Assembly: GCA_900079685.1 (NCBI GenBank)
Contig: LT599018.1
Location: 2,765,924 to 2,829,923 of the forward strand
Length of the DNA: 64,000 nt
Reading direction: 5' to 3'
Origin: an uncultured delta proteobacterium
Lineage (GTDB): Bacteria > Desulfobacterota > Desulfovibrionia > Desulfovibrionales > Desulfovibrionaceae
Both the position numbers and the translations under genes were made by a program. The notes under the pieces are model-generated. The model was not told the DNA's origin. It did not search any database and was given only the letters and a program-made list of their open reading frames with translations. Positions 14,195 to 52,583 of the stretch are shown here, one piece after another (position 1 is the stretch's first letter; every line of letters starts with the position of its first letter).

Positions 14195-14782
14195 TTACAC
14201 GAACATCCCGTGCTCGCGGAGAATGTTCAGGCCGATGGCGATGAGAACCAGGCCGCCGACGGCGTTGGCGCGGTTGGTCCAGTTCCCGGCGAGGGAACAG
14301 ACGATTTTTCCCAGATGCAGCCCCACGGCGGTAATGGTGAAGCAGACAACCCCGATGACGGCCGCCGGGAACCATACCCCGTGGCCCAGAATGCCGAAGG
14401 AGAGCCCTACGGCCAGGGCGTCCACGCTCGTCGCGATGCCGAGGAAAAAGAGGGACGCGCCCTGGGTCGGGTCCGACGTCATGACGCAGGCTTCCGCGGG
14501 CTGGCCCCGTTTTTCCCAGGCTTCTTTCAGCATGCGCGCGCCCACGATGAACAGCAGGACGAACGCGACCCAGTGGTCGTAATCCTGGATGAGTTTTTCA
14601 AGGCCCGCGCCGAGAAACCAGCCGATGACGGGCATGGCGAACTGGAAGAGCCCGAACGTTCCGGCCATGCGCACGGTCTGGGAAGCGTTGATACATCGCA
14701 ACTGCACGCCGCTGGCGACCGCCACGGCGAAAGCGTCCATGGCCAGAGCCACGGCCAGTATCAAAAGCGTCAAAAGAGTCAT
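14195..14782 (-). CDS. mntP: Manganese efflux pump MntP
   Basis: A 195-residue, six-helix inner-membrane exporter that lowers cytoplasmic Mn(II). The two family motifs are both present: AMDAFAVAVASG near residue 15 and TSVDALAVGLSFG near residue 120, each with the conserved aspartate. Length matches the family. The ATG at 14782 is chosen because GGAGG sits close upstream, and the longer frame upstream adds hydrophilic Arg- and Gly-rich sequence that does not belong. The Shine-Dalgarno lies in a palindrome (see 14783-14801). I saw no yybP-ykoY manganese riboswitch motif upstream. It is divergent from the DUF2325 pair with a Fur-like box between them. Confidence 0.92.
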   Translation of the reverse strand: MTLLTLLILAVALAMDAFAVAVASGVQLRCINASQTVRMAGTFGLFQFAMPVIGWFLGAGLEKLIQDYDHWVAFVLLFIVGARMLKEAWEKRGQPAEACVMTSDPTQGASLFFLGIATSVDALAVGLSFGILGHGVWFPAAVIGVVCFTITAVGLHLGKIVCSLAGNWTNRANAVGGLVLIAIGLNILREHGMFV

Positions 14783-14801: not shown

Positions 14802-14948
14802 CTATACTGCCCTTCACAGGCAAGAGCAAGGCGGATATTTCCACGGCGGCCTGCCGCTGTCCGGCCCGGGCGTTCTTGCCCGCCTCCGGCCCTTGTTCCG
14901 CGGCACTCTTTCCGAATCGGACGGAAAATAAAAATTTCTACTTGATCT

Positions 14949-14963
14949 TGATAATCAAATTCA
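14949..14963. promoter_or_regulatory. Fur-box-like site between mntP and the DUF2325 pair
   Basis: TGATAATCAAATTCA matches the 7-1-7 Fur consensus TGATAAT-N-ATTATCA at all seven bases of the left half and four of seven in the right half. It is about 170 bases before mntP and 150 bases before the DUF2325 gene, in the short AT-rich part of the shared upstream region. Confidence 0.55.
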
Positions 14964-15110
14964 ATAAAAAAGATCATACTGTGCGCACGGGGGATAGCCC
15001 CCTTCTCAGGGGGCCGGTTCTCCCGGTTTCAGCGGCGGGTTTTCCCCCCTCCTCGTCAGGTTTTGTTTTCCTTTGTTGTAAGAACGGTCTTTTACATTCA
15101 GGAGTGGACT

Positions 15111-15419
15111 ATGTGCGTAGCCCTTGTTGGTGGAATGGACAGGCTGAAACGCGATTATGAAAATGCCGCCAAGCGGTGCGGCGTCAAACTCAAGGTATTC
15201 ACGGGGAAAGAATCCTGCCTTGTGGACAAGATGGGCCGGGTGGACGTGGCCATTTTATTCACCAGCATGATTTCCCATAACGCCCGCACCGAAGTCATGC
15301 AAAAGAGCAAAAGCATGGGCATACCGGTCACGTTTCTGCACTCCAACGGCGTGAGCGGCCTTCGCCAGTGCCTTTCCGACCTTATGGCCAAACAGGAGGA
15401 CGCGGCATGTGCGCTTTGA
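15111..15419 (+). CDS. DUF2325 domain protein
   Basis: A 102-residue cytoplasmic protein that is nearly all DUF2325: it opens CVALVGGMDRLKRDYENAAKRCGVKLKVFTG and continues with a Rossmann-like alternation and the motif ILFTSMISHNARTEVMQKSK. Its biochemical role is not known. Small DUF2325 proteins in sulfate reducers have been noted as part of the iron (Fur) response, which fits the Fur-like site upstream; that link is from memory and not proven here. The ATG at 15111 has CAGGAG eight bases upstream, and the longer open frame before it is not needed. It overlaps the next gene by 13 bases. Confidence 0.85.
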   Translation: MCVALVGGMDRLKRDYENAAKRCGVKLKVFTGKESCLVDKMGRVDVAILFTSMISHNARTEVMQKSKSMGIPVTFLHSNGVSGLRQCLSDLMAKQEDAACAL

Positions 15420-15751
15420 CATCCATACGGGCACTGTGCCGGGCCGGGGCCGAGGCCGAGGCGCACGCGGCGGGCAAGGCCGTGAACGGGGACTTCCTTC
15501 TGCACCAGGCCTATTCCCAGGCCAAGGGCCTGCATTCGCCCGTGCTGGAAGCGAAGATCCTGAACACCATGGCGGTGTTCGCCATGGAGGGAAAACGGGC
15601 GAAGGCCGCCATCCCTCTGCTGGCCCAGGCCCGGGCGAAAGTGGACGGCCGGATAGGCAGAAACAACAAACTGTACGCGGTTATCGCAAACAACCTGGTG
15701 CAGGCCGAAGTCGCCGCAATTGCGGAGAGCGTTGCCGTATCCAATAATTGA
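15407..15751 (+). CDS. Small helical protein paired with DUF2325
   Basis: A 114-residue protein of no recognised family. It is predicted all helical and Ala-rich; the segment LEAKILNTMAVFAMEGKRAKAAIPLLAQARAKV looks like one or two TPR-like helical hairpins. The ATG at 15407 has AGGAGG nine bases upstream and lies inside the end of the DUF2325 gene, so the two are translationally coupled and probably work together. The stop codon is embedded in the following perfect Fur palindrome. Confidence 0.75.
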   Translation: MCALTSIRALCRAGAEAEAHAAGKAVNGDFLLHQAYSQAKGLHSPVLEAKILNTMAVFAMEGKRAKAAIPLLAQARAKVDGRIGRNNKLYAVIANNLVQAEVAAIAESVAVSNN

Positions 15752-15763
15752 TAATTATTATCA
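15749..15763. promoter_or_regulatory. Perfect 7-1-7 Fur-box palindrome
   Basis: TGATAATTATTATCA is an exact match to the 7-1-7 Fur format, and the inverted repeat extends one base further each side (15748-15764). It covers a candidate -10 TATTAT (15756-15761), placed 18 bases after a TTGCCG (15732-15737). It is downstream of the DUF2325 pair and not in front of any protein gene on the plus strand. Confidence 0.65.
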
Positions 15764-15767
15764 ATAA

Positions 15768-15845
15768 AACTGAAAGCCGTGGCCTTGTGGGTTCGCCATC
15801 AGCTTGAGACGACAAAAGCCACGGCGAACGCCGTGGCTTTTGTTG
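15768..15845 (+). ncRNA. Candidate Fur-controlled small RNA
   Basis: The candidate promoter inside the Fur palindrome would start a transcript near 15768 that ends at the strong hairpin of 15812-15843 followed by TGTT. The result is about 75 bases with no reading frame. A copy of GCCGTGGC at 15776-15783 equals part of the terminator's right arm (15830-15837) and can pair with the same left arm, giving an alternative fold. The layout is that of a RyhB-like RNA, but no homology is claimed. Confidence 0.35.
15812..15843. terminator. Bidirectional terminator shared with ackA
   Basis: Bases 15812-15825 pair perfectly with 15830-15843 around GAAC, with AAAA and TTTT at the stem base, so it can act for the plus strand and for ackA on the minus strand. 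Confidence 0.8.
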
Positions 15846-15862
15846 TTCACGCGGTGGGCGCG

Positions 15863-17068
15863 TTATTTCTGCAGCACGCGCAGGGTAGCCCTGGCAATGG
15901 CCAGTTCTTCGTTGGTCGGCACGATCAGCACCGGCACTTTGGCGCCGGGCGCGCTGATGTCGCGCACATCGCCGGAACGCTTGTCGTTCTTTTCCAGGTC
16001 GATGGCGATGCCCATGTGCTCAAGGTCTTTGCAGACCGCCGCGCGGCAGTGGTTGTCGTTTTCGCCGATGCCCGCGGTGAAGATCACGGCGTCCACGCGG
16101 CCGAGCACGGCGTAATACGCGCCGAGGTAGCTGCGGATGCGGTGGGAGAAGACGTCAAACGCCAGCTGGGCGGTCTTGTCGCCCTTTTCGCGGGCCGAAT
16201 GGATGTCGCGCATGTCGTTCATGCCGCACAGGCCCTTGAGGCCGCTCTGTTTGTTGAGCACGGCGTCGAGCTGTTTGATGTCCATGCCCGTGTTCTGCAT
16301 GATGTAGGGGTGGAGCGCGGGGTCAATGTCGCCGCAACGGGTGCCCATGACCATGCCGGCCAGCGGGGTCATGCCCATGGAGGTGTCGAAGCTTTTGCCG
16401 TTTTTGACGGCGGTCATGGAGCAGCCGTTGCCCAGGTGGCAGGTGATGCAGTTGAATTCCTCGAATTTTTTACCCAGGAATTCGGCTGCTGTTTCCGCCA
16501 CGTACTGGTGGGACGTGCCGTGGAAGCCGTAGCGGCGCACGCCGTACTTTTCATAGTATTCGTAGGGAACGGCGTAAATGTAGGACTGCGGCGGCATGGT
16601 GGCGTGGAACTCGGTGTCGAACACGGCCACGGAGGGCGCGTTGGGGAAGAGTTCCTGCGCGACTTCGATGCCCTGGAGGTTGGCGGGGTTGTGGAGCGGA
16701 GCCAGCGGGGAAAGATCGCGGATGGCCTTCTTTTCCTCTTCGCCCACGACGCAAGCCTTGATGAAACGCTCGCCGCCCTGCACCGTGCGGTGGCCGACGG
16801 CCGTGATTTCCGAAAGATCCTTGATGACGCCCTTTTCAGGGTCGGTCAGCAGTTTCACAACCGCGCGCATGCCGGCGGTATGGTCCGGGAAGGGCTGCTC
16901 AAAGGCGTATTTTTTTTCTTCCCAGTTCTTGTAAATCTTGTGGGTCAGGGCGCCCACGGCGTCGCCGATGCGTTCCACCAGGCCGGAGCACAGCGTTTCG
17001 CCTTTCGGCATTTCCAGAATCTGGTACTTGAACGATGAACTGCCGCAGTTGATGACCAAAACTTTCAT
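15863..17068 (-). CDS. ackA: Acetate kinase
   Basis: A 401-residue cytoplasmic enzyme that makes ATP and acetate from acetyl phosphate and ADP. The start MKVLVINCGSSSFKY is the family's phosphate-binding motif; VGHRTVQGGERF and YGFHGTSHQYV carry active-site residues, and FTAGIGEND is the C-terminal ATP site. GAGGGAA lies upstream of the ATG. No phosphotransacetylase gene is next to it in the window, so ackA stands alone, with a 529-base upstream region that could carry its control. It fits substrate-level phosphorylation during incomplete oxidation of lactate or similar substrates. Confidence 0.97.
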   Translation of the reverse strand: MKVLVINCGSSSFKYQILEMPKGETLCSGLVERIGDAVGALTHKIYKNWEEKKYAFEQPFPDHTAGMRAVVKLLTDPEKGVIKDLSEITAVGHRTVQGGERFIKACVVGEEEKKAIRDLSPLAPLHNPANLQGIEVAQELFPNAPSVAVFDTEFHATMPPQSYIYAVPYEYYEKYGVRRYGFHGTSHQYVAETAAEFLGKKFEEFNCITCHLGNGCSMTAVKNGKSFDTSMGMTPLAGMVMGTRCGDIDPALHPYIMQNTGMDIKQLDAVLNKQSGLKGLCGMNDMRDIHSAREKGDKTAQLAFDVFSHRIRSYLGAYYAVLGRVDAVIFTAGIGENDNHCRAAVCKDLEHMGIAIDLEKNDKRSGDVRDISAPGAKVPVLIVPTNEELAIARATLRVLQK

Positions 17069-50975: not shown

Positions 50976-52583
50976 ATGCTTGACATGCCGCCGTTCACCC
51001 AGTCCGTGTATGCCCCTTTGGTGGCCATGCTGCCCGTGCTCTGGCTTTTCGTCAGCCTGGGTGTTCTGAAAATGTCCACGCCGGTGGCCTGCGCCGCCGG
51101 GCTTGCCATGAGCGCCGTTCTGGCCGTCGCGGGCTGGGGCTTTACGCCGGTTCTGGCCGCCAAGGCGTTCCTTGACGGCGCGGCCTTCGCCCTCATGCCC
51201 ATTCTCTGGGTCATTTTCGCGGCCCTCCTGACCTATTCCATTGCCGTGGAAACAAAGGCCATGGACCGCATCAAGGACCTTCTGGCTTCCGTCTCCCGCG
51301 ACAGGCGCATCCAGGCGCTGCTCATCGCCTGGGGGTTCGGCGGGTTCATGGAGTCCGTGGCCGGGTTCGGCACGGCTGTCGCGGTTCCGGCCGCGGTTCT
51401 GGTTTCCCTCGGATTCGCCCCGTTTTGCGCGGCGGTGGTATGCCTTCTGGCCAACACCGTTGCCGTGGCGTTCGGGGTGGTGGGGATACCCGTCATCACC
51501 CTTGCCTGGATAACGGATCTGCCCGTTACCGAGCTTTCCACCCGGATCGTGCTGCAGCTGACGGCCTTTGTGTTCATCGTGCCGATTTTCATCGTGACGG
51601 CCGTGACCGGGAGCGTGCGCGGCGTGGCCGGGGTGTGGGTGCACGCCCTTGGGGCGGGTGCGAGCTTCGGCGTGGTGCAGTTCATCGCGGCCCGGTATAT
51701 CGGCCCGGAGATGCCCGCCATTCTCGGCTCCCTGGCCGCGTTCGCGACCACGGCGGCTCTGGCAAAATACCTGCCGCCCAAACAGATCTGGACCTTTGCC
51801 CACGACGGGGAGGAGAGCGTTCTCCATGGCGGAGAAACGCGGGCGGGCGGAATCCGCCCGCGCGAACAAACGGCGGGCGGAGCCCGCCTGGACCTCGCCG
51901 CGCAACTTAAAGCCTGGTCTCCCTATATCGTTTTGCTCATCCTCGTTCTGGCGAGCCGGATGATCGGGCCGGTCAACGCGCTGCTCGCCAAGGCCACGAG
52001 CCTGCACGCCATTTACGACGGCCCCGGCGGCAAGCCGCTTGCCGTAGCCTGGCTGCTCACGCCGGGAACCCTTGTCCTGATAGCCGCCCTGATCGGCGGG
52101 CGTATCCAGGGAGCGTCTTTCGGGGCCATTCTTCGTCTGTCCGGGAAGACCGCGCGCCAGATGGGAAAAAGCGTGATAACCATCGTGTGCATCGTGGCGC
52201 TGGCCAAGATGCTGGGCTACAGCGGCATGGTCAACACGGTGGCCGTGGCCCTGGCGGATGTCGCGGGAACCTTCTACCCGCTGGTGGCGCCGGTTTTGGG
52301 CATGCTCGGCACCTTCATCACCGGGAGCGACACCAGCTCCAACATTTTGTTCGGCCAGTTGCAGAAGCAGGTGGCGTTGAGCATCGGGGTTTCCCCGATC
52401 TGGATAGCCGCGGCCAACACCAGCGGGGCATGCATCGGCAAGATCATTTCCCTCCAGAGCATCGCCATTGCCGGGATTTCGGCCAATATCGCGGGCAGGG
52501 AAGGGGAGCTCTTGATCGTGTGCGTGAAGTACGCGCTGCCGTTTATCGTGGCGCTGGGCGCGCTGGTGTTCGCGGTTGCGTGA
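50976..52583 (+). CDS. lctP: L-lactate permease
   Basis: A 535-residue inner-membrane proton symporter of the LctP family, with about 12-14 helices. Landmarks: FLDGAAFALMPILWVIFAALLTYSIAVETKAMDRIKDLL, AWGFGGFMESVAGFGTAVAVPAAVL, GTFITGSDTSSNILFGQLQKQVA and ANTSGACIGKIISLQSIAIA. It takes up lactate, and in related enzymes glycolate. A Gly- and Arg-rich loop is seen around residues 285-305. The start at 50976 has GAGGAA nearby, and the long open frame upstream lies over the lipoprotein gene on the other strand. Confidence 0.93.
   Translation: MLDMPPFTQSVYAPLVAMLPVLWLFVSLGVLKMSTPVACAAGLAMSAVLAVAGWGFTPVLAAKAFLDGAAFALMPILWVIFAALLTYSIAVETKAMDRIKDLLASVSRDRRIQALLIAWGFGGFMESVAGFGTAVAVPAAVLVSLGFAPFCAAVVCLLANTVAVAFGVVGIPVITLAWITDLPVTELSTRIVLQLTAFVFIVPIFIVTAVTGSVRGVAGVWVHALGAGASFGVVQFIAARYIGPEMPAILGSLAAFATTAALAKYLPPKQIWTFAHDGEESVLHGGETRAGGIRPREQTAGGARLDLAAQLKAWSPYIVLLILVLASRMIGPVNALLAKATSLHAIYDGPGGKPLAVAWLLTPGTLVLIAALIGGRIQGASFGAILRLSGKTARQMGKSVITIVCIVALAKMLGYSGMVNTVAVALADVAGTFYPLVAPVLGMLGTFITGSDTSSNILFGQLQKQVALSIGVSPIWIAAANTSGACIGKIISLQSIAIAGISANIAGREGELLIVCVKYALPFIVALGALVFAVA

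Follow-up and report, generated by a model that had tools for sequence, protein, structure and literature searches.

The locus considered here lies in a window of 64,000 nucleotides (the whole stretch of DNA that was analysed) from the genome of an uncultured member of the Desulfovibrionaceae. A two-gene operon on the plus strand runs towards the convergent acetate kinase gene ackA, and the features of concern gather at the end of that operon and in the short stretch between the two transcription units:

14942 to 14964, no strand assigned: tandem Fur boxes of the DUF2325-genZ operon, arranged as in Desulfovibrio (PMC545781).
15111 to 15419, plus strand: DUF2325 gene (Pfam PF10087, E=5e-26), first of the operon and by gene order the counterpart of the genY C-terminal domain.
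15407 to 15751, plus strand: genZ-like gene, 114 aa, recognized by position and by homology among relatives.
15732 to 15761, plus strand: weak promoter-like pair, TTGCCG-18-TATTAT, with the -10 element inside the palindrome.
15747 to 15765, no strand assigned: 9-1-9 palindrome resembling an operator of the Fur/PerR family.
15768 to 15850, plus strand: extent of a hypothetical small RNA, deduced from where the promoter-like pair and terminator lie, with computed folds.
15776 to 15783, plus strand: GCCGTGGC, an extra copy of the terminator right arm that could pair with the left arm, from sequence and folds.
15810 to 15845, no strand assigned: bidirectional intrinsic terminator of the convergent genes genZ and ackA, from sequence and folds.
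15863 to 17068, minus strand: ackA, acetate kinase (Pfam PF00871, E=3e-154).

The start of the genZ-like gene overlaps the end of the DUF2325 gene, and the genZ-like protein has no match in Pfam, its identity coming from other evidence than a family model. Within Desulfovibrio, Fur control has been predicted for genY(C)-genZ, an operon whose two boxes are offset by 6 bp (Rodionov et al. 2004, PMC545781), a tandem arrangement that is typical of Desulfovibrio Fur boxes though not obligatory (PMC545781). Judged by the order of the genes, the size of the proteins and the layout of the boxes, and without direct comparison to the D. vulgaris proteins, DUF2325-genZ is the counterpart of that operon. 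The gene pair recurs across the Desulfovibrionaceae, usually behind a Fur-like box, and the box is kept before DUF2325 in most of the family relatives that have both genes. In the source genome, the boxes at 14942-14964 lie between the operon and a divergent mntP-like gene (14195-14782, minus strand), which could share their control.

A sequence-only reading of the window had singled out a perfect 7-1-7 palindrome, which is present as described (TGATAATTATTATCA, exact at 15749-15763) and proves better than claimed, as it extends to a 9-1-9 palindrome (ATTGATAATTATTATCAAT, 15747-15765). Whole-genome pattern searches returned a single exact copy of TGATAATNATTATCA in the 4.0 Mb genome and a single copy of TTGATAATNATTATCAA, even when one mismatch was allowed; a first-order Markov model predicts 0.0017 and 0.00013 copies per genome, respectively. 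The site has the form expected of a Desulfovibrio Fur box, that is, a 17-bp palindrome that is WTGAAAATNATTTTCAW or close to it, with 17 of 17 positions matching WTGAWAATNATTWTCAW and two A/T changes relative to the published Desulfovibrio consensus. Its flank, TCAATAAA, is common to the operon promoter box in the source genome, in a relative (G011) and in two Desulfovibrio metagenome-assembled genomes (MAGs). The palindrome is very probably a genuine operator for a repressor of the Fur family, given also that the genome encodes a Fur-like protein and has similar TTGA..TCAA boxes before other genes.

The reading had also stated that the palindrome does not precede a protein gene. That holds insofar as no sense gene lies downstream; however, the statement missed the operon context and the fact that the 15-bp palindrome core opens with the TGA at 15749-15751, the stop codon of the genZ-like gene. 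Fur boxes of Desulfovibrio are usually tandem, overlapping with a 6-bp shift, and located upstream of a gene (PMC545781). The window site shares with them the WTGAAAATNATTTTCAW-type palindrome, the same operon and a genome that encodes a Fur-like protein, but it is a single, perfect box (at 15748, with no tandem 6-bp-shifted form) that has TGATAAT half-sites and is found where an operon ends (3') rather than before a gene.

Besides the Fur-like protein (C1:2126529), the source genome encodes a PerR-like protein (C1:281603), and the palindrome might instead be a PerR operator concerned with peroxide stress. Identical or one-off palindromes stand before oxidative-stress genes in other genera of the Desulfovibrionales. 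In one genus these genes are rbo (desulfoferrodoxin) and rubredoxin, as read in L130 and deduced for L128, L129 and L135, which have the neighbouring gene in common. In L127 the palindrome precedes perR-rubrerythrin, in L010 it precedes a peroxiredoxin gene, and in L009 it lies between perR and a peroxiredoxin-like gene. Such placement, together with the PerR-like protein, makes PerR a possible binder. The genome's own PerR-type sites, however, have another core. The Desulfovibrio PerR signal is AwnAGnAAtngTTnCTnwT (PMC545781); the rubrerythrin (AATAATAATCATTCCTATT) and perR sites of the source genome fit that signal, and its rbo site is yet another palindrome, of the AATAGG type. None of these three sites has the TTGA..TCAA ends that are common to the genome's Fur boxes before feoA, fld and DUF2325-genZ (the one departure being at an end of the fld box), and the fld and operon promoter boxes are of the tandem form. 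Neither neighbour of the window site, genZ or ackA, is a peroxide or oxygen defence gene. Since the genome's PerR-type sites differ and its Fur boxes have the TTGA..TCAA ends, Fur is favoured for 15747-15765 and is, on sequence grounds, most likely the binder, and the PerR reading, though still to be reckoned with, appears improbable. The palindromes in the other genera also mean that a 7-1-7 rule alone cannot separate Fur from PerR sites in this order.

Two side observations concern the same family of sites. The exact or one-off palindromes of the TTGATAATNATTATCAA type lie near base 1505 in L127, L128, L130, L009 and L010, and they possibly represent a type of PerR operator distinct from that of D. 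vulgaris. Elsewhere in the source genome, a single near-perfect Fur-like box (TTGAAAACCATTTTCAA, at L102:513-529, G000 C2:463012) is located upstream of a porin-like open frame, which may be counted as a further candidate Fur target.

Behind the palindrome, the strong terminator that had been claimed is confirmed by folding: the RNA from 15768 to 15852 reaches -40.5 kcal/mol, compared to a mean of -25.5 for shuffled sequences (z -4.25). An automated terminator scan has no entry for 15810-15845, probably because the stem spans the U tract; the folds do show the terminator. It lies 18 bases beyond the ackA stop codon and has A- and T-rich tails on either side. As the terminator is common to two convergent genes, no small RNA is needed to explain it.

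The two-fold switch proposed for the transcript is not supported, although its elements are there. The GCCGTGGC copy exists, as does the alternative fold that it permits. An upstream copy of at least 8 right-arm bases occurs in 2 of the 63 hairpin terminators scanned in 464 kb, the window terminator included (the other lies at 51862 on the minus strand). In growing transcripts that begin at 15768, the alternative hairpin prevails from 15824 to 15836, with energies of -18.8 to -23.4 kcal/mol. By 15840, with part of the U-rich tail still to come, the terminator fold has taken over completely, and in the full RNA the alternative (-27.0 kcal/mol) loses to the terminator (-40.5 kcal/mol) by 13.5 kcal/mol. 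The alternative fold is an intermediate of transcription. In this model, the hairpin could slow termination slightly.

The same copy might be read as part of an antiterminator that puts termination of the genZ transcript, or of some new one, under control, with read-through running antisense into ackA. The rarity of an 8-base copy among terminators and the hairpin of the partial transcript to 15836, at -23.4 kcal/mol, are in keeping with such control. Yet in the full transcript the terminator is favoured by the margin given above, the switch is over before the U-rich tail has ended, the transcript has no ligand-binding domain, and there is no sense gene downstream for the fold to control. Regulated termination is therefore considered highly improbable.

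Upstream of the terminator, the claimed pair of TTGCCG, 18 bases and TATTAT is present, with 9 of 12 matches. At 8.6% of positions, chance alone supplies a -35 element with at least four of six matches and a spacing of 16-18 bases, and the -10 element lies within the palindrome. The promoter match is thus near chance, it depends on the palindrome itself and it counts as weak.

The sequence-only reading had proposed, for the stretch from box to terminator, a candidate Fur-repressed RNA with the layout of the RyhB type. In the version considered here, an RNA of approximately 80 bases would begin shortly after the box, run to the terminator and act on other mRNAs under iron limitation, in a RyhB-like manner but without Hfq. 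In its favour are the right order and spacing of operator, promoter-like pair and strong terminator with no open gene, the uniqueness of the box in the genome and the upstream copy of the terminator arm, which is as rare as two in 63 terminators. The points of resemblance to the iron-sparing RNAs RyhB and PrrF are a Fur-type box over a promoter-like sequence, a short non-coding stretch and an intrinsic terminator. The window locus differs from those systems in that its RNA is hypothetical and is accompanied by neither a sequence or structure match, nor a detected Hfq gene, nor conservation. A profile search for Hfq (PF17209) found no match in the genome, which is 95.4% complete, although E. 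coli and the other controls were positive; a scan of the window against Rfam 15 gave no match at the gathering score; and pairing of the RNA with the 299 translation starts in 464 kb was at best no stronger than that of shuffled RNA. In a limited literature search, no description of a Fur-controlled small RNA in Desulfovibrio was found. Membership in the RyhB type is unsupported.

Conservation is also lacking, with the site found in none of 29 genZ and 29 ackA family relatives. At the 29 genZ loci, weak homologues among them, the interval from 60 bases upstream of the genZ stop codon to 400 bases downstream of it holds no Fur-like box (three mismatches at most), and none is found near the ackA stop codon among the 29 ackA relatives. 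A DNA search with 15060-15870 revealed no second copy in the genome, save for the self-complementary terminator; it gave a few partial matches in relatives, those in L009 and L010 being to the palindrome alone, and none in the sole other genome of the genus, which is 74% complete. No homologue of the 80 bases, as a covariation analysis would require, emerged. The best ackA match, 76% identical, is in G011, where DUF2325-genZ and ackA are on different contigs, implying that the genZ-ackA junction is not shared with that genome. As far as can be tested by such comparisons, the genZ-ackA junction and its box appear to be private to the source lineage.

With the unit absent from these relatives and from elsewhere in the genome, a promoter near chance and a terminator that ackA and genZ require anyway, the Fur-repressed RNA of approximately 80 bases is judged possible but rather unlikely. 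The position of the site at the end of a Fur-type operon, the terminator shared by convergent genes, the promoter match and the lack of the site in any relative all speak against a dedicated small RNA. A narrower version, in which a lineage-specific, Hfq-independent RNA of approximately 80 bases would be encoded where a Fur operon has its 3' end, under repression by Fur or PerR, with a co-transcriptional hairpin that delays termination, is unlikely as well.

The explanation that we prefer, with about even confidence, is an auxiliary Fur operator, or one left over, followed by a shared terminator of the ordinary kind; on this view, the site does not serve as promoter for a selected RyhB-like RNA. 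On this account, a Fur-family operator would stand at the 3' end of the DUF2325-genZ operon, an operon for which Fur control at its own promoter is predicted as well. With iron plentiful, Fur would be expected to occupy the window site in addition to the operon promoter boxes; with iron short, any weak transcription from the site would yield, alongside the genZ transcript, only a short 3' RNA that is a dead end. Fur occupancy, repression and a leftover origin are what we infer; the sequence and its rarity, the operon context, the lack of conservation and the failure to detect an Hfq gene are what the analysis shows. The persistence of a perfect operator speaks against pure decay. Should an RNA arise here, it would constitute a Fur-controlled small RNA in a family of sulfate reducers, acting without a detected Hfq. 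If none is made, the locus would illustrate that a strong Fur-family operator followed by a terminator is insufficient for a RyhB-like call when the terminator serves convergent genes and the box lies on a stop codon.

One conceivable source of a leftover operator is a Fur-controlled gene that formerly lay behind genZ. In two Desulfovibrio MAGs, flavodoxin is directly after genZ, indicating that Fur-related genes have stood in this position in other genomes. When a leftover flavodoxin promoter was considered as the source of the window box, the 50 bases behind the box proved unlike the genZ-fld junction of those MAGs, and the fld gene of the source genome has its own boxes elsewhere, which counts against such an origin; a flavodoxin promoter is thus a conjectural source at most. 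In the same MAGs (L042:894-1770 and L043:3403-4279), no DUF2325 gene was detected in the stretch examined, and Fur-like boxes lie directly before genZ.
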